DNA of 64,000 nt from Pseudobythopirellula maris (GTDB lineage: Bacteria; Planctomycetota; Planctomycetia; Pirellulales; Lacipirellulaceae), in the NCBI RefSeq assembly GCF_007859945.1, contig NZ_SJPQ01000002.1, positions 1,032,279-1,096,278 of the forward strand, read 5' to 3'. A model generated the notes under the pieces. It made no database searches, was not told the origin of the DNA, and saw nothing but the letters and a program-made list of their open reading frames with translations. The position numbers and the translations under genes were made by a program. Shown here piece after piece: positions 8,153 to 45,391 of this stretch. Numbering within the stretch: the first letter of the stretch is position 1; every line of letters starts with the position of its first letter.

Positions 8153-8767
8153 ATGGCCTCGACATTCGGCGCTCTCCGCCTGAACGTGACCGACCGCCTC
8201 GCCGCTGGCGGCCGGGTGGCCGTGAACGGCGTGTGCGCAGCGATCTGCCTGACGGGGCTCGCTTTCGAGTGGCGTGGCGTTTACGCCCCGATCGCCGCCG
8301 ACACTCGCCACTACCGTGAGCGGACCGATCAGTTGGTGCAGATGGTGGGCGAGTCGGTCGGGATCGACCAGAAGCACCAACGGCTCAACCGAGTCGAATC
8401 AGAAATCCAGGAGGCCCTCGGCGACACGCTCGCCCGGCTGCCCGACACGCCGCTCGAGGCCGACTTCGCCCGCCAGCTGCGCCAGCACGCCTCGTCGGCG
8501 GGTTTCGGGCTGACACAGCTAGCGGTCGGTTCCCGGGTGGAGCGCGACGCCACCGGCTCGGTGGTCATCAGCTGCGGCGGCCAAGCCAACCACGCCGAGC
8601 TGTGCGACTTTCTTGCCAGGGTTCACCAAGGCCCGCGGATCGCCACGGTCGGCTCGCTGACGGTCTCTGCGAACGACAATCCACGCCGTCATTCCTTCGA
8701 AATCCAATTCAACCTGCATTACCGGATCAAACCACGCGATACAGAGAGTACGGAGGATCTCCTATGA
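8153..8767 (+). CDS. PilO/GspM-like alignment protein
   Basis: A 204-residue protein with one transmembrane helix near residues 25-40 (VAVNGVCAAICLTGLAFEW), a predicted periplasmic coiled-coil (YRERTDQLVQMVGESVG) and a ferredoxin-like C-terminal domain (SAGFGLTQLAV, GQANHAELCDFLARV). The ATG at 8153 is preferred over a GTG at 8078, which would overlap the previous gene by 19 bases and add a proline-rich stretch. It would pair with the PilN-like protein in the inner-membrane ring. Assignment rests on topology and synteny. Confidence 0.65.
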   Translation: MASTFGALRLNVTDRLAAGGRVAVNGVCAAICLTGLAFEWRGVYAPIAADTRHYRERTDQLVQMVGESVGIDQKHQRLNRVESEIQEALGDTLARLPDTPLEADFARQLRQHASSAGFGLTQLAVGSRVERDATGSVVISCGGQANHAELCDFLARVHQGPRIATVGSLTVSANDNPRRHSFEIQFNLHYRIKPRDTESTEDLL

Positions 8768-9264
8768 GCGCTTTGAAGCCCAAGGGGGTCGGCCTCACCC
8801 GCGGACGGCTAGCACTGATTTCGGTGCTGTCGAGCGTATTGATGTACGTGCTCAAGCCGCTGGTGATGCCCGAAAAACCGACCGCAAGCGCGAGGCCCGC
8901 GCCGCGGGCGACCGCCTCCTCACCGAACAACACCGAAACGACCGACACAGCCGACCCGATGACCGATTGGCCCCCTCGCCGTTGGCCCGACACGCCGCTC
9001 GACAAGGCGGCGGCGCACGACCCCTTCCACAGCCCCCACGTGGCGGCTGCGTTGGGCGCCACGCGCGTAGGAGCATTGGCCGGAGGCGGACAGGGCGACC
9101 CGGCCGAGGAGTTGCAAGGGGCCGATTCGACCGTGCTGCTGATCTCGGGCGGCGAGAGTGTCGCCCGAATCGGCGACGAGGAATACCGCGTGGGAGACCT
9201 TTTCGCGGGACGCGAGATCACGGCGATCACGCCCCGCGGGCTGGTTTTCGAACCGCAAGACTGA
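8764..9264 (+). CDS. PilP/GspC-like periplasmic linker protein
   Basis: A 166-residue protein with an N-terminal hydrophobic segment (LALISVLSSVLMYVLKPLV), a Pro/Thr-rich linker and a small C-terminal beta domain resembling the HR/PilP fold (VLLISGGESVARIGDEEYRV then GDLFAGREITAITPRGLVF). Such domains contact the secretin N0 domain and tie the inner ring to the outer-membrane channel. A good ribosome site (GGAGG) precedes the ATG, which overlaps the previous stop by ATGA. The secretin gene follows 12 bp later, supporting the role. Confidence 0.65.
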   Translation: MSALKPKGVGLTRGRLALISVLSSVLMYVLKPLVMPEKPTASARPAPRATASSPNNTETTDTADPMTDWPPRRWPDTPLDKAAAHDPFHSPHVAAALGATRVGALAGGGQGDPAEELQGADSTVLLISGGESVARIGDEEYRVGDLFAGREITAITPRGLVFEPQD

Positions 9265-9276
9265 GGACTAATCCGC

Positions 9277-11196
9277 TTGGCCAATCCCACCCGATCGAGC
9301 ACGCCGACGCCCCCCCGAGGGCGCCGTGTCACACGCCGCTTAAGCGTGCGGATCGGGACGCTGTGCGCGCTGGTGGCGATCGCGGCGAGCATTCTCGGCG
9401 GGCCGGCGTTCGGCCAATCGACCCTTCAGCTCAGCCCCCCGGGCCAACCCGCGCTGGACCTACCCGGGGCCAGCCCCCAGAGCCCGAGTCCCCAGAGCCC
9501 GAGCCCCACGGCCATCAACGTGGTCCAGCGGCTGCTCGAGCTCGGCGGCGTTGGCGCTCCTGACCAGCTGCCCGCGCCGGGCCCCACCGGGCCGAACTCG
9601 GCCAACGCCCGCACGCCCTCGGACCAGAGCGAAGCGGTCCCCACCACGCCGCCGAACAACGATGTGAAGCTCAGCGAGCAAGACGGCATGATCTCGCTCG
9701 TGATGCGCAACGGCTCGCTCCGTCACGCCGTGGCCCTGGTGGCCGAGACGCAGGGGCTCAACCTCGTGTTCGCGGGATCCTCGGACACGGCCGTGACCGC
9801 CTCGTTCGATCGCACGCCGTGGCGTGACGTGCTCGACACGCTGATCACCACTTCGGGCCACGCCTGGATGAGCCGCGGCGATATCCTGATCGTCACCTCG
9901 ATGGAAGACGCCGCCCAGATCGCCCCCCACGCCGAGGGCCGGCAGGTGATCGTCTACGAGCTCGACTACATCCGCGCGACCGACGTGGAGACCGCTGTCA
10001 GCGGGTTGCTCTCGCCGGCCGGCAGCTCGTGGATCACCCAAAGCATGCCGGACGACAACCGCGCGAGCCGCGAATCGATCGCCGTGGTCGACTACGCCGG
10101 CAATCACCAGCGGATCGCCGAGTACTTGTCGCAGGCCGATGTGCCGCCGCGCCAAGTGATGCTCGAGGTGCAAATCCTCGAGGTCGAACTCTCGGAAGAC
10201 GACAAGCACGGCGTGAACTTCCAGAACATGGCGAGCTGGGCGTCGGCCAACGTGACGGCGGGGACCACCGGCCTGATGACCGAGTCCGCCTCGTCGGCCA
10301 GCCCGATCAATTCCACCTCGAACCCGACGTTCTTCGTTGATATCAACGGCGCCGGCCTGGACGCGATCATCACGGCGATCAAGCAGACGGCCGACACCAA
10401 AACGCTCGCCTCGCCGAGGCTGCACGCCCTGAGCGGTCAGGAAGAGCGGATCCACATCGGCCAGCGGCTCGGCTACAACCTGACCGGCCAAGCGATCAAC
10501 GGCACGACCCAGCCGAACACCGAGTTCTTGGAGGTCGGCGTCACGCTCACCGTCACCCCTCGCATCACGCAGGACGGCCAGGTCATGATGCGAGTGAAGC
10601 CCGAGGTCTCGACCGGCGCGATCAACCTGCTGACCAACGCCCCCGACGAGGACACGACGGAAGTCGAAACCGACCTGCTCGTCAGTGACGGCCAGGGGGT
10701 CCTCATCGGCGGTCTGATCCAAGAAACCGACGAGAACCGCCAGTCGAAGGTGCCGTGGCTGGGCGACATGCCCTACGTCGGCGGCCTGTTCCAGCGACGC
10801 GAGACCGTGCTCCGGCGCCGCGAGATCATCGTCTCGCTCGTGCCGCACATCTTGCCGATGCCGGCTCACATCCAGCAACGCTACGACTTCGACGTGATGC
10901 GATCGCGCGAGCCGCTCACGCAGGGCGCCATCTGCAAGTACCCGCGGCCGTACGAGCCGAGCATGCCGGACCGAGCGCGCCACTGGCGCCGCGACGGCGA
11001 GATCAAGCTCGCCAGCCGGCAAGAGCTCACACGCTTGCCGCCGGTCGCGTGCAGCGAGTCGTACGAGCCGCCCGTTTTCGACGAGCCACAGCGGCTGCCC
11101 GAGATGGCCCCCCCCGCCTCGTTCTCTCCCTCGCTCGAGACGCCGGCGATGTTCCAGCCGAGCAACGAGCGAGCGACGCTCCCCAGCGTCCGTTAG
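9277..11196 (+). CDS. Secretin (GspD/PilQ family)
   Basis: A 639-residue outer-membrane channel. It has a signal peptide (RIGTLCALVAIAASILGGPAFG), a Pro/Ser-rich spacer, an STN/N0-like domain (LRHAVALVAETQGLNLVF), an N1 domain and the secretin core ending in VSDGQGVLIGGLIQETDENR, VPWLGDMPYVGGLFQ and REIIVSLVPHIL. The roughly 130-residue tail after the core is rich in Pro and charged residues. The start is a TTG with GAGGA upstream; no ATG is available that keeps the signal peptide. It is the last large gene in the operon and forms the exit pore for the fibre or substrate. No pilotin is recognised nearby. Confidence 0.93.
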   Translation: MANPTRSSTPTPPRGRRVTRRLSVRIGTLCALVAIAASILGGPAFGQSTLQLSPPGQPALDLPGASPQSPSPQSPSPTAINVVQRLLELGGVGAPDQLPAPGPTGPNSANARTPSDQSEAVPTTPPNNDVKLSEQDGMISLVMRNGSLRHAVALVAETQGLNLVFAGSSDTAVTASFDRTPWRDVLDTLITTSGHAWMSRGDILIVTSMEDAAQIAPHAEGRQVIVYELDYIRATDVETAVSGLLSPAGSSWITQSMPDDNRASRESIAVVDYAGNHQRIAEYLSQADVPPRQVMLEVQILEVELSEDDKHGVNFQNMASWASANVTAGTTGLMTESASSASPINSTSNPTFFVDINGAGLDAIITAIKQTADTKTLASPRLHALSGQEERIHIGQRLGYNLTGQAINGTTQPNTEFLEVGVTLTVTPRITQDGQVMMRVKPEVSTGAINLLTNAPDEDTTEVETDLLVSDGQGVLIGGLIQETDENRQSKVPWLGDMPYVGGLFQRRETVLRRREIIVSLVPHILPMPAHIQQRYDFDVMRSREPLTQGAICKYPRPYEPSMPDRARHWRRDGEIKLASRQELTRLPPVACSESYEPPVFDEPQRLPEMAPPASFSPSLETPAMFQPSNERATLPSVR

Positions 11197-39841: not shown

Positions 39842-40184
39842 CTTGGTTCCCCCCATTCCGCTCTCGTCAGACACCGCGCCGTGTGCGTGTACCGGAACGG
39901 CCGACCGATCGGCCCCACGCGGCTTGCCCGAGAGCTGGTACGACTGGTATCGGCGGAGCAATCGGCGCAATCCAGTTTTTCGCACCTCGGCGAGAGGGAT
40001 CGACGCGGCTTGCTGGCGCCGCTGGCGCCCGCCGCACACGCCATACCCCAACGGGTCACGTCGGCGTTGGACCGAGCGTGCCGATGTGTTACAAGATTAG
40101 ACCCGATCCCGTAGGTCGGGCTTGCGCGCAGGCACGGAAGCCTCTGCCCCAAGCCCGGCGCCGCACCCACGTCACGGAAGACGC
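39842..40184. other. Divergent intergenic region
   Basis: Between the lipoprotein and the exporter gene; no gene is supported. It must hold two outward promoters, but no good -10/-35 pair was picked out. A short repeated CTGGTA word occurs near 39936-39951. An A/G-rich ribosome site (GGAAG) lies before the exporter ATG. Confidence 0.45.
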
Positions 40185-42182
40185 ATGACAGGTTTTGGCC
40201 GCGCAGTACGCCTGGCCCTCGGTTCGCGCGGGCTTGTGGCCGGCTGCTTCGTGACGTCGCTGTTCGTCGCGGTGCTGTGGGCCAGCAACCTGATGGCCGT
40301 TTGGCCGCTGGTCGACGCGGTGATGCGCGGCCAGTCGGTGCCCCAGTGGCTCGAGAGCGAGGCGGAGACTCAGCGGACCGAACTCGCCGAGCGCACCCAG
40401 CGCCGCATCGAGCTCGGCCTGCAAGTCGCCCACGCTTCGCCCGACCAGCACCCCCGACTGCGGCAGCTGATCGCCGACTCGAAACGCGAGTCGGGCTACA
40501 CCCGTGAGAAGCTCGAGTGGAACGCGTGGGTCCGGCCGATCGCCGCGCGCTGGCTGCCCAGCACGCCGTTCGAGACGCTCGTATGCGTCTGCGCCTACGT
40601 GATGATCGGCACGCTTCTGAAGAACCTCTTCCGGGTGCTCAACCTGGTGTGCGTCGCGCGGCTGGGGCACGTCACTTGCTTCAACCTGCGCAAGGACTAC
40701 TACCGCCAACTGCTGAGGCTCGACCTGAGCGAGTTCTCCGAACGCGGCCGCGGCGACCTGATGAACCGCTGCACCACGGACCTCAACGAGGTCGGCACGG
40801 GCGTCCAGACCTTGTTCGGGCAGGCCGTGCGCGAGCCGCTCAAGATGATCGCCTGCTTCGCCGGCGCCGCCTGGGTGAGCTGGCGGCTGCTGCTGCTCAC
40901 CATCGTCGTGGCGCCGATCGCTTTCTTCGCAGTCCGCGCGCTGGCCAAGTCGCTCAAGCGGGCCAACCGCCGGGCGCTCGAGGAGCTCTCCGGCATCTTC
41001 GAGACCCTCACCGAGACGCTCTCCAGCATCCGCCTGATCAAGGCCTTCACGCTCGAGTCGGCCGAGCGGGCCCGGTTCCACGACTCGGCCAAGGCGCTCT
41101 ACGAGCGGCAGATGAAGATCGCCCGCTACAACGCGCTGGTGAGCCCGCTGACCGAGAACCTCGGCATCATGATGGTCATGCTCGCCGCGCTCGCCGGCGG
41201 CTTCTTGGTGCTCAACCAAGAGACCCATCTGTTCGGTGTGCGGATCAGCGAGACCCCGCTCACGCACGGCCACATGACGCTGTTCTTCGCCATGCTGATC
41301 GGCATGAGCGACCCGGCCCGGCGGCTGGCCGAGGTGTTCAACCGCCTGCAGATGGCCAGCGCCGCGTCGGACCGGGTGTTCGAGGTGCTCGACCGCCGGC
41401 CGACGATCGTCGACCCGCCGGCGCCCGCGTCGTTCCCGCTCAAGTGGCGTTCGCTCGCCTTCGAGCAAGTCACGTTCGGCTACGGCGGCGGAGCCTCGGT
41501 CCTGAAGAACGTCGACCTCGAGGTGCGCCGCGGCGAGCGGATCGCCATCGTCGGCCCCAACGGCTGCGGAAAGAGCACGCTGTTGTCGCTGCTGCCGCGG
41601 TTCTACGACACCACGGGCGGCGCGATCCGCATCGACGGCGTCGACGTGCGTGACCTGCGGCTGCGGGCCCTCAGGTCGCGGATCGGCATCGTCTCGCAGC
41701 AGGCCCACCTGTTCAACACCTCGGTGGCGGAGAACATCTCGTTCGGCCGCCCCGGCGCCACTCGCGAAGAGATCGAGGCGGCCGCCGTCCAGGCCCACGC
41801 CGACCGGTTCGTGCTCGACAAGCTCGAGCACGGCTACGACACGATCGTCGGCCCCGGGGGCTCGCGGCTCTCGGGCGGTCAGCGGCAGCGGATCGCGCTG
41901 GCGCGGGCGATCCTGCGCGACCCGGAGATTTTGATCCTCGACGAGGCCACCAGCCAGATCGACGTGGAGAGCGAGCGGCTCATCCACGACGCGCTCAAGC
42001 GATTCACCGTCGGCCGCACGACGCTGCTCATCACCCACCGCCCCAGCACGCTCACCCTGGCCGACCGGGTGGTGGTGATGGACCACGGCGTGATCGACGA
42101 CATCGGCACCGCCGACGAGCTGTACGCCCGCTGCGAACTGTTCCGCACACTGTGCAGCGGCGGTTACCGGGCGAGCGCGTGA
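40185..42182 (+). CDS. MsbA-like ABC exporter (half transporter)
   Basis: A 665-residue ABC transporter with an N-terminal membrane domain (first helix GCFVTSLFVAVLWASNLMAV) and a C-terminal ATPase: Walker A GPNGCGKST, signature LSGGQ, Walker B ILILDEAT and H-loop ITHRPS. The six-helix layout fits MsbA/lipid or multidrug exporters that work as homodimers. A long hydrophilic insert lies between helix 1 and helix 2 (about residues 45-120), which is unusual. No LPS genes are adjacent, so the substrate is open. Start ATG 40185. Confidence 0.93.
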   Translation: MTGFGRAVRLALGSRGLVAGCFVTSLFVAVLWASNLMAVWPLVDAVMRGQSVPQWLESEAETQRTELAERTQRRIELGLQVAHASPDQHPRLRQLIADSKRESGYTREKLEWNAWVRPIAARWLPSTPFETLVCVCAYVMIGTLLKNLFRVLNLVCVARLGHVTCFNLRKDYYRQLLRLDLSEFSERGRGDLMNRCTTDLNEVGTGVQTLFGQAVREPLKMIACFAGAAWVSWRLLLLTIVVAPIAFFAVRALAKSLKRANRRALEELSGIFETLTETLSSIRLIKAFTLESAERARFHDSAKALYERQMKIARYNALVSPLTENLGIMMVMLAALAGGFLVLNQETHLFGVRISETPLTHGHMTLFFAMLIGMSDPARRLAEVFNRLQMASAASDRVFEVLDRRPTIVDPPAPASFPLKWRSLAFEQVTFGYGGGASVLKNVDLEVRRGERIAIVGPNGCGKSTLLSLLPRFYDTTGGAIRIDGVDVRDLRLRALRSRIGIVSQQAHLFNTSVAENISFGRPGATREEIEAAAVQAHADRFVLDKLEHGYDTIVGPGGSRLSGGQRQRIALARAILRDPEILILDEATSQIDVESERLIHDALKRFTVGRTTLLITHRPSTLTLADRVVVMDHGVIDDIGTADELYARCELFRTLCSGGYRASA

Positions 42183-42229: not shown

Positions 42230-42486
42230 CTCTTTCTTTGAGCAGACGCGCTGCGCCCTTTTGGCACGGGCAGCCAGGCTGGGAAGCCGCTTGGCGTTGC
42301 CTCCGCCCGGTTGACCTCTCTCCTAGGCCCCCCACGGGCACGCCATCCGGCGTCGCATGCCTCGTCCTTGCCGGGCTGTGGGCTTCGCTGCGGGCCTTCT
42401 CACTAGCGGCACGGGCGGCTCTCCAGCTTGCGTCACGAGCGAACAGGGGGTCGCTTGCGCAAACGCAGATTCTCGCATCGCCACTA

Positions 42487-42529
42487 TTGCAATCCGTTTG
42501 CACTAAGATAATATGCACATGAATTGCAT
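42487..42529 (+). promoter_or_regulatory. Promoter with overlapping palindrome (possible zinc regulator site)
   Basis: TTGCAA (42487-42492) and TAATAT (42509-42514) are 16 bases apart in the AT-rich patch before the all3515-like gene. Overlapping the -10 is ATGCA-N7-TGCAT (42513-42529), a perfect five-base palindrome. A repressor bound here would block transcription. Linking it to Zur is inferred from the family of the downstream gene. Confidence 0.5.
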
Positions 42530-42649
42530 TTGCTTTCATTGTGCGTATAGAAGGCCGGCGGACGCGTCTTTCTTCTCCCGCACGCCGAGCAAAGCGCAGG
42601 GGGCTTGTGCCCCTCCCACTTTCTATTTCTTCCAGGAGAGATCGACCCC

Positions 42650-43471
42650 ATGAACGTGACCCGCTTTACCTTGATCGCGGCCGCAATGGCCCTTGCACTC
42701 GGCGCGCCGCTGACCGCTCGCGCCGAGCTGGCCCAGTATTACATCGGCATCGATAGCCGAGACACGCCCTACGACGCTCCCGCCAGCGAGGGCGGCGGAG
42801 CCTACCCCGACAACCCGAACGAGAACCGCCTGACGCTGCTCTTGCAGCATGGCAGCCACTACCACGGCATCGGGCAGTACACTTACAGCGGATCGGCCGC
42901 GTCGCCCACGCTCGTCGACACGAACAGCAACAACCGCCTGCCCGAGGGGTACACCGGTCAGGAGCCCCTGCCGCTCCTGCCGGGCAGCGGCGTTTACGCT
43001 GGCAAGATGACCAGCAAGGCGCTGTTTGGCGTGACCTACTCCGACCTCGAGATGCTCAACGTCCAATCGCTCGACGGCGCAGGGGCTCTTGAGCAGGTCC
43101 TGTTCGACAGCAGCTCGGGTCGTTGGAACGCCGAGTTCGACACCGCCCACATCCACCTGGAGCTGGTGAGCGTCAGCTCCCCGCTGCTCGGTGTCGGCAC
43201 GCTGGGCAATCCGAACGCCCTGTCGTTCGGGGGCGACGTGCACCTGGGCGACGGCGACGAGCTCTTCTCGTTCACCCCGGTGCTGTGGGTCGATGAGGCC
43301 GCCCCGGTCGGCACGTACTCGGCCGAATTCCGCCTGGTCGACGAGTCCAGCGCCTTTGGCGACTCGGGCCGCTTCTTCATCGACGTGCAGCAGGTTCCCG
43401 AGCCAACGGCTCTTTCGCTCGCCGGAGTCGTGATGATCGCCCTTGGCGTGACCCGTCGGCGGAACGCCTAA
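42650..43471 (+). CDS. all3515-family PEP-CTERM protein (zinc-regulated family)
   Basis: A 273-residue exported protein. A signal peptide (LIAAAMALALGAPLTARAE) is followed by the conserved body of the all3515 family known from Zur-regulated cyanobacterial genes: QHGSHYHGIGQYTYSG, TNSNNRLPEGYTGQ, LPLLPGSGVYAGKM and FTPVLWVDEAAPVGTYS. His-rich words (HGSHYH) fit zinc binding. The end is the PEP-CTERM signal VPEPTALSLAGVVMIALGV with a basic tail TRRRNA. A ribosome site (AGGAGAG) precedes the ATG. The family assignment is from memory of the motif set. Confidence 0.82.
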   Translation: MNVTRFTLIAAAMALALGAPLTARAELAQYYIGIDSRDTPYDAPASEGGGAYPDNPNENRLTLLLQHGSHYHGIGQYTYSGSAASPTLVDTNSNNRLPEGYTGQEPLPLLPGSGVYAGKMTSKALFGVTYSDLEMLNVQSLDGAGALEQVLFDSSSGRWNAEFDTAHIHLELVSVSSPLLGVGTLGNPNALSFGGDVHLGDGDELFSFTPVLWVDEAAPVGTYSAEFRLVDESSAFGDSGRFFIDVQQVPEPTALSLAGVVMIALGVTRRRNA

Positions 43472-43479
43472 CAACACTT

Positions 43480-43521
43480 CCCCCAGGTCCCCGGCGGGGC
43501 AACCCGCCGGGGCGTGTGGGG
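43480..43521 (+). terminator. Terminator of the all3515-like gene
   Basis: CCCCGGCGGG at 43489-43498 pairs perfectly with CCCGCCGGGG at 43503-43512, a ten-base stem capped by GCAA, a GNRA tetraloop. Outer CCCCC/GGGGG runs extend it. There is no T run, so the termination mode is uncertain. Confidence 0.6.
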
Positions 43522-43588
43522 GATGGGCCTTTGACGGATTCCGATCTGATCCAGCGAGTGGGGTCCGCTGTGCGGACCGCTCATAGCA

Positions 43589-44200: not shown

Positions 44201-45391
<1,191 letters not shown>

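Follow-up and report, generated by a model that had tools for sequence, protein, structure and literature searches.

Introduction

ZepA is a secreted protein that was published in 2024 from a range of bacteria, PVC (Planctomycetes, Verrucomicrobia, Chlamydiae) bacteria included (PMC10957091). According to the text of that paper, the ZepA of Anabaena is a secreted, zinc-binding protein that mediates zinc uptake, and Zur represses it at two overlapping sites which cover the -10 boxes; a PVC homologue showed zinc-specific behaviour in an Escherichia coli growth assay, and a FUR-family gene lies near PVC zepA genes. The operators in the same text are motif 1 of cyanobacteria (the Anabaena Zur consensus), motif 2 of Proteobacteria and motif 3 of Luteolibacter, which is the one PVC operator given there and is likened to clostridial sites; no planctomycete operator is met in that text, figures and supplements aside. 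Here we describe a zepA gene in a 64,000-nucleotide stretch of the planctomycete Pseudobythopirellula maris (the window; G000:C2:1032279-1096278, 67% G+C) together with the tandem operator in front of it and a candidate regulator, FUR2.

Two further Fur-family systems bear on this operator. In Streptomyces coelicolor, the nickel sensor Nur has the box tTGCaa-N5-ttGCAA, as given in the text of PMC3919588 and PMC7055735. In two Desulfovibrio genomes, a Zur box, ATGCAACNNNGTTGCAT, has been predicted upstream of znuABC-zur (text of PMC545781).

Like ZepA (All3515) of Anabaena sp. PCC 7120, the window protein matches the family profile over its whole length, has the H-X2-9-H-[FY]-H motif, a probable signal peptide and a PEP-CTERM tail, and is preceded by two operator sites at the promoter. 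Unlike in Anabaena, the operator sequence is TGCAA-N5-TTGCA. This form is identical to that of the Nur box, which also belongs to a Fur-family regulator, and makes up the core of the Zur box predicted for Desulfovibrio. We consider it likely, with a probability of roughly 0.85, that this zepA encodes a small exported zinc-binding protein which is made in zinc scarcity under tandem-box control by FUR2, a regulator of the Zur type. The family itself is not new; what we add is the tandem box, the connection of this box to a Zur-like clade and the finding that it is identical to the Nur box. Open-licence PMC text yielded no earlier report of this operator for a planctomycete Zur.

Results

zepA encodes a ZepA family protein with the zinc motif

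The zepA open reading frame (ORF) begins with an ATG at 42650, ends with a stop codon at 43471 (plus strand) and encodes 273 amino acids. The original prediction had placed the protein in the all3515 family. The NCBIfam model NF040463 (all3515_fam; full name 'all3515 family Zur-repressed PEP-CTERM protein') confirmed this, matching the window protein with 275.3 bits against a cut-off of 75 over positions 1-227 of its 227.

The motif H-X2-9-H-[FY]-H is present as H67-GS-H70-Y-H72, encoded at 42848-42865 on the plus strand. H67, H70, H72 and E99 were invariant in all 17 homologues aligned, which came from 17 genomes. Judged from this alignment, the three histidines are the zinc motif published for ZepA, and E99 is perhaps, as a guess, the conserved glutamate of the same paper (PMC10957091). 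An eighteenth homologue, from G022 (L033), was excluded from the alignment; it is truncated by an in-frame TAG and is either a pseudogene or an assembly error.

Matches to NF040463 over the cut-off were found in 17 of 59 genomes of relatives and in only 2 of 392 genomes from across the phylum (own genome included in both sets), with sub-threshold partial matches in 3 more of the latter. A scan of named genomes with the single window sequence detected no relatives of the protein.

Two copies of a conserved box lie upstream of zepA

Comparison of the 300-bp regions upstream of 18 zepA genes yielded the unit TGCAA-N5-TTGCA. In the window, box 1 (TGCAATCCGTTTGCA, 42488-42502) is a perfect copy, one of three in the genome, and box 2 (TGCACATGAATTGCA, 42514-42528) differs from the unit by one mismatch; their centres are 26 bp apart. 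Box 2 is the core of a palindrome, ATGCA-N7-TGCAT, that the original prediction had pointed out as a control site and that we located exactly at 42513-42529. The palindrome is thus one of two operator copies, although it is the weaker half, and the perfect box beside it had gone unmentioned. As a unit in its own right, ATGCA-N7-TGCAT was rejected, as what the relatives have in common is TGCAA-N5-TTGCA.

The probability of a perfect box arising by chance in the 300 bp upstream was about 0.0008 in Markov shuffles and 0.00155 for the local AT-rich 130 bp. In none of 20,000 Markov shuffles did a perfect box occur together with a second near-box.

The palindrome had also been said to cover the -10 box of the promoter, which the promoter scans did not bear out: a strict scan for sigma-70 promoters gave no hit in 42380-43560. 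The only candidate left is sub-threshold, TTGCAA-16 nt-TAATAT at 42487-42514 on the plus strand. Its putative -35 hexamer (42487-42492) falls in the first half of box 1, and its putative -10 hexamer (42509-42514) lies between the boxes and reaches no further into box 2 than its first base. Across boxes, a -10-like hexamer 15-19 nt downstream was favoured (mean score 4.5 versus 3.64; none of 2000 control means was as high, with controls unmatched in AT content).

The box recurs at zepA loci of relatives

Within 9 kb of zepA, 16 perfect copies of TGCAA-N5-TTGCA were found in 7 of the 18 neighbourhoods, while each of 59 other permutations of the half-sites occurred at most twice. The comparison of homologous promoters that accompanied the original prediction as a proposal has given a common element. 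When every 5-letter half-site was scanned blindly with 7 gap lengths in the 300 bp upstream, TGCAA-N5-TTGCA ranked first (3 of 18). The zepA of G034 has two perfect boxes 30 bp apart. In G015, G006, G004, G024 and G026, perfect boxes lie about 0.2-4.3 kb 5' of zepA, and G015 has another 1.5 kb 3' of it. Twenty perfect sites, together with their reverse complements, gave a wider consensus close to TTGCAAT-N3-ATTGCAA.

The boxes follow the candidate regulator. Of the 9 zepA genomes that also have a close FUR2 (8 of the same family, f1, and G038), 7 had a perfect box near zepA, as against none of the 8 same-family genomes that lack a close FUR2.

Some boxes and promoters stand apart. No zinc gene was recognised around four other boxes of G034. 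Two of the three zepA genes of genus g2 (L028 and L033), in genomes without a close FUR2, have a palindrome, TTGATCAA, at about -76, perhaps the site of another regulator.

FUR2 belongs to a clade with the box at its own promoter

A Zur homologue had been named as a check on the original prediction. Two Fur-family genes over the cut-off were found in the genome: FUR1 (C3:319541-319900), which resembles Fur, and FUR2 (C2:777555-777992), which lies about 300 kb from zepA and belongs to a clade that carries the box at its own promoter in relatives. A box with at most one mismatch lies within about 110 bp 5' of the FUR2 match in all 9 relatives with at least 60% identity, and 5 of these boxes are perfect (best copy of each genome; a second G026 copy, of 59% identity, was left out). 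Fifteen more distant relatives had no perfect box, and one-mismatch boxes occurred in the vicinity of 3.

In a set of named genomes, 33 FUR2-like loci were collected and 32 scanned, a fragment (L157) being excluded. A perfect box within 250 bp upstream of the FUR2-like gene was found in 14 of the 32, against 0.03 expected from shuffles and 1 in 250 control windows from the same loci. At least four of these loci (L126, L127, L131 and L139) appear to repeat genomes used above; without them, 12 of 28 were boxed.

FUR2 and zepA are also associated by position and by occurrence. In 5 of the 18 loci, the 9-kb surroundings of zepA contain an orthologue of FUR2 (62-72% identity), at a distance of about 5 kb or less; at a sixth, in G412, where FUR2 was counted from the zepA locus and not genome-wide, the nearby FUR-family match is only 28% identical. 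In the named set, zepA itself lies near FUR2 in 2 of the 32 loci (L125 and L128). Across family f1, 8 genomes have both genes, 1 has FUR2 only, 8 have zepA only and 19 have neither (Fisher p = 0.003, uncorrected for relatedness).

H43, E86, H98, H100, C103, C106, C142 and C145 of FUR2 are invariant in all 10 orthologues. These residues do not tell one metal from another, and the profile searches put Fur at the top.

Genes beside FUR2 in relatives point to zinc

The neighbours of FUR2 in relatives are more informative about the metal. ZigA is a zinc GTPase of COG0523 (NF038288), and a ZigA-like GTPase stands in the FUR2/zepA cluster of G024, where it scores 583.6 bits, just under the curated cut-off of 600. 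In G006, a GTPase judged similar by eye stands behind two perfect boxes, and in G012 a GTPase of 77% identity adjoins FUR2 with a perfect box between them. Divergently across the boxed FUR2 promoter stands a ZIP transporter in five loci: L143, L146 and L147 (Fuerstiella metagenome-assembled genomes), L151 (Planctomycetes bacterium TBK1r) and L153 (Stieleria sedimenti), with matches of 84-114 bits against a cut-off of 35.1. With zepA, a ZigA-like zinc GTPase and divergent ZIP transporters among these neighbours, FUR2 is most probably Zur.

The Fuerstiella FUR2 boxes, TGCAACTTAGTTGCA, fit the Desulfovibrio Zur box except in the outermost letters. The Desulfovibrio box differs in coming from another phylum and in targeting znuABC, and the likeness concerns the boxes, of which the Desulfovibrio one is a prediction.

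Evidence against zinc control and alternative explanations

Several observations weigh against control of zepA by FUR2 and zinc. Of the 16 same-family zepA genomes, 8 have neither a close FUR2 nor a perfect box near zepA, and G012 and G038 have FUR2 and no such box; therefore, ZepA is not always controlled by this box. A perfect box is missing from the 250 bp upstream in 18 of the 32 named FUR2-like loci. The FUR2 of the P. maris genome itself stands alone, and the 350 bp in front of it contain no box even when 3 mismatches are allowed. Upstream of ZnuA and ZIP, likewise, no box was detected with up to 2 mismatches allowed, and no COG0523 gene was found, so that an own-genome regulon was rejected as a line of evidence; nothing found in this genome except zepA points to zinc. 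As FUR2, ZnuA and ZIP have no box here, we infer the zinc control from relatives. No NCBIfam model names FUR2 as Zur, and its nearest solved structures, in sequence and in profile searches, are Fur. To these points are added the nickel association of the box and its unremarkable number in the genome, which are taken up below with the explanations that they favour.

The first of these explanations is that FUR2 senses nickel as Nur does, that this zepA answers to nickel and that the ZepA-like proteins here serve nickel. In its favour, the box is that of Nur, and the FUR2 profile puts Nur (3eyy, 9.7e-06) slightly ahead of Zur (2o03, 2.4e-05; 3mwm, 9.9e-05, which we take to be a Zur structure). 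The single-sequence search with FUR2 ranks them the other way, with 3mwm (9.2e-06) above 3eyy (0.0027). Nur targets sodF, sodN and nik, whereas the genes recognised next to FUR2 are related to zinc, namely ZIP, the ZigA-like GTPase and zepA. No nickel transporter or nickel superoxide dismutase was recognised in the annotated clusters, an inspection that was not systematic and included no genome-wide search for nickel families. ZepA homologues were zinc-specific in the published E. coli assay, according to the text of PMC10957091. On this balance, we regard the nickel explanation as unlikely.

It is also quite unlikely that the operator is a relic, FUR2 of this genome having lost its box and cluster and zepA being constitutive or regulated otherwise. 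The absence of a box at FUR2, ZnuA and ZIP fits such a loss, as do four copies of a G+C-rich 92-nt repeat that lie 0.13-1.2 kb 5' of FUR2 (L118:8363-9424, with FUR2 at 9556), near the position of the box in relatives, as though an insertion had displaced the FUR2 promoter. Against it, the pair of a perfect and a one-mismatch box is rare by chance, as the shuffles showed, and FUR2 has an open reading frame with the residues invariant among its 10 orthologues kept.

Very unlikely, in our judgement, is use of the boxes by FUR1, with zepA answering to iron. FUR1 is present and Fur-like; however, the perfect boxes at zepA track FUR2 in the counts given above and sit on FUR2 promoters, and the box does not resemble the Fur box GATAATGATNATCATTATC given in the text of PMC545781.

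That the palindrome in the promoter is mere chance and only the gene is meaningful is hardly credible: the 3 perfect boxes in the genome, one of them inside a gene read by eye as metG, compare with about 1.3 expected from base composition, but the tandem, its place and its conservation contradict this explanation.

The weight of the box thus rests on its place and conservation, its number in the genome being unremarkable. Genome-wide counts were rejected as evidence and prove nothing, as G016 (12 perfect boxes) and G023 (9) are rich in boxes without a close FUR2. Sites with at most one mismatch number 54 in the P. maris genome, against 33 for a reversed control. The third perfect box, TGCAAGATTCTTGCA (L123:2963-2977, at C1:2014462), is the only intergenic one besides that of zepA and stands 138 bp 5' of a minus-strand ORF of 769 amino acids, which had no Pfam match over the cut-off (FecR, 16.8 versus 24); it may be a second target or a chance occurrence.

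Export signals and structural model of ZepA

By eye, the N-terminus of ZepA is hydrophobic and ends in ARA, suggesting a probable Sec signal peptide of residues 1-25 (42650-42724, plus strand), in which the structural model has a helix at 3-18. The C-terminus (43391-43468, plus strand) carries VPEP, a hydrophobic helix and RRR. This arrangement and the match to the whole NF040463 model argue for the PEP-CTERM sorting tail that the original prediction had named, although the short tail models remained narrowly under their cut-offs (Pfam, 18.4 versus 20.7; TIGR02595, 12 versus 16). The genome has exosortase matches over the cut-off in 4 stretches at 3 places. With the FUR2 clade, the zinc-related neighbours and these exosortase genes, the idea of a zinc-controlled, exosortase-sorted surface protein has gained support, and its zinc part is very likely right.

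The AlphaFold2 model of ZepA is mostly beta, with a mean predicted local distance difference test (pLDDT) score of 87.3. A PDB sequence search with the ZepA profile gave no match at E <= 1, and a fold search with the model gave none at E <= 0.001. The best VIA-align score was that of PAD1 (Z 6.4, 91 residues, 3.0 A); other beta-sandwich proteins followed closely, so no fold was assigned.

Proposed mechanism and wider meaning

We propose the following model. When zinc is plentiful, FUR2 would bind as a Zur-type repressor to the two boxes at 42488-42528, covering the -35 side of the candidate promoter and flanking its -10 side, and transcription would be blocked. When zinc is scarce, the repressor would leave and ZepA would be made. 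The protein would then be exported by Sec, and its VPEP tail may be cut by one of the exosortases. Mature ZepA would bind zinc through H67, H70 and H72 at or outside the cell surface and hand it to an uptake system.

The idea of zinc capture by ZepA, for which tests have so far used Anabaena and the host E. coli, thereby gains a concrete planctomycete case, with a tandem operator of 41 bp, a specific gene as candidate regulator and a set of genes that share the box. One core sequence links Nur of Streptomyces, a nickel sensor, the predicted Zur of Desulfovibrio and the window operator; a core shared across different metals and phyla calls for caution in naming the metal of a Fur-family sensor from its box.

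A broader reading is tentative and, to us, somewhat doubtful: planctomycetes from the family of the window to Stieleria and Fuerstiella may share a Zur regulon with Nur-type boxes that includes exosortase-sorted, histidine-bearing exported proteins beyond ZepA. Such outputs might be a shortened ZepA relative behind twin boxes in G012 and PEP-CTERM proteins with QHxD and HxH in zur-zepA clusters, both described below. If so, these bacteria would have a zinc-capture system of surface proteins, and Zur and Nur would share one operator code, which raises the question of whether the actinobacterial nickel sensor arose from such a Zur.

Surroundings of zepA and other observations

A Shine-Dalgarno-like AGGAGA precedes zepA at 42634-42639 (plus strand). 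On the same strand, an ABC-transporter-like ORF (40122-42182) precedes the gene, and an ORF like glyceraldehyde-3-phosphate dehydrogenase (44201-45313) follows it on the opposite strand, both named by eye; given these neighbours, zepA is probably transcribed alone. Directly 3' of zepA, a strong G+C-rich inverted repeat was seen by eye at 43489-43512. It has no T run and the terminator scan was silent; it is perhaps the end of the transcript.

In G012, a PEP-CTERM protein of 222 amino acids with DHHVSHYH is encoded at L113:5626-6616, behind two perfect boxes 47 bp apart. Its comparison with the ZepA profile (hhalign, E 2.6e-13) aligned most of its length, whereas for another PEP-CTERM protein the match was confined to the tail. 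With 20 bits on NF040463 (cut-off 75), it is perhaps a shortened relative of ZepA.

Another family of PEP-CTERM proteins, with a probable mature start QHxD and a later HxH, occurs in zepA clusters beside a prepilin-like gene (L037, reversed, 8250-9191; L041:7907-8848; L042:6631-7593; L125:1477-2412); the L037 protein had no Pfam or NCBIfam match. A MerC-like membrane protein stands near zepA together with an ArsP_1-type permease in G015 (L034:9915-12264), and another MerC-like protein (L132:5187-5843) is encoded divergently to a FUR2, two boxes separating the genes, making the MerC-like protein a possible further metal importer.
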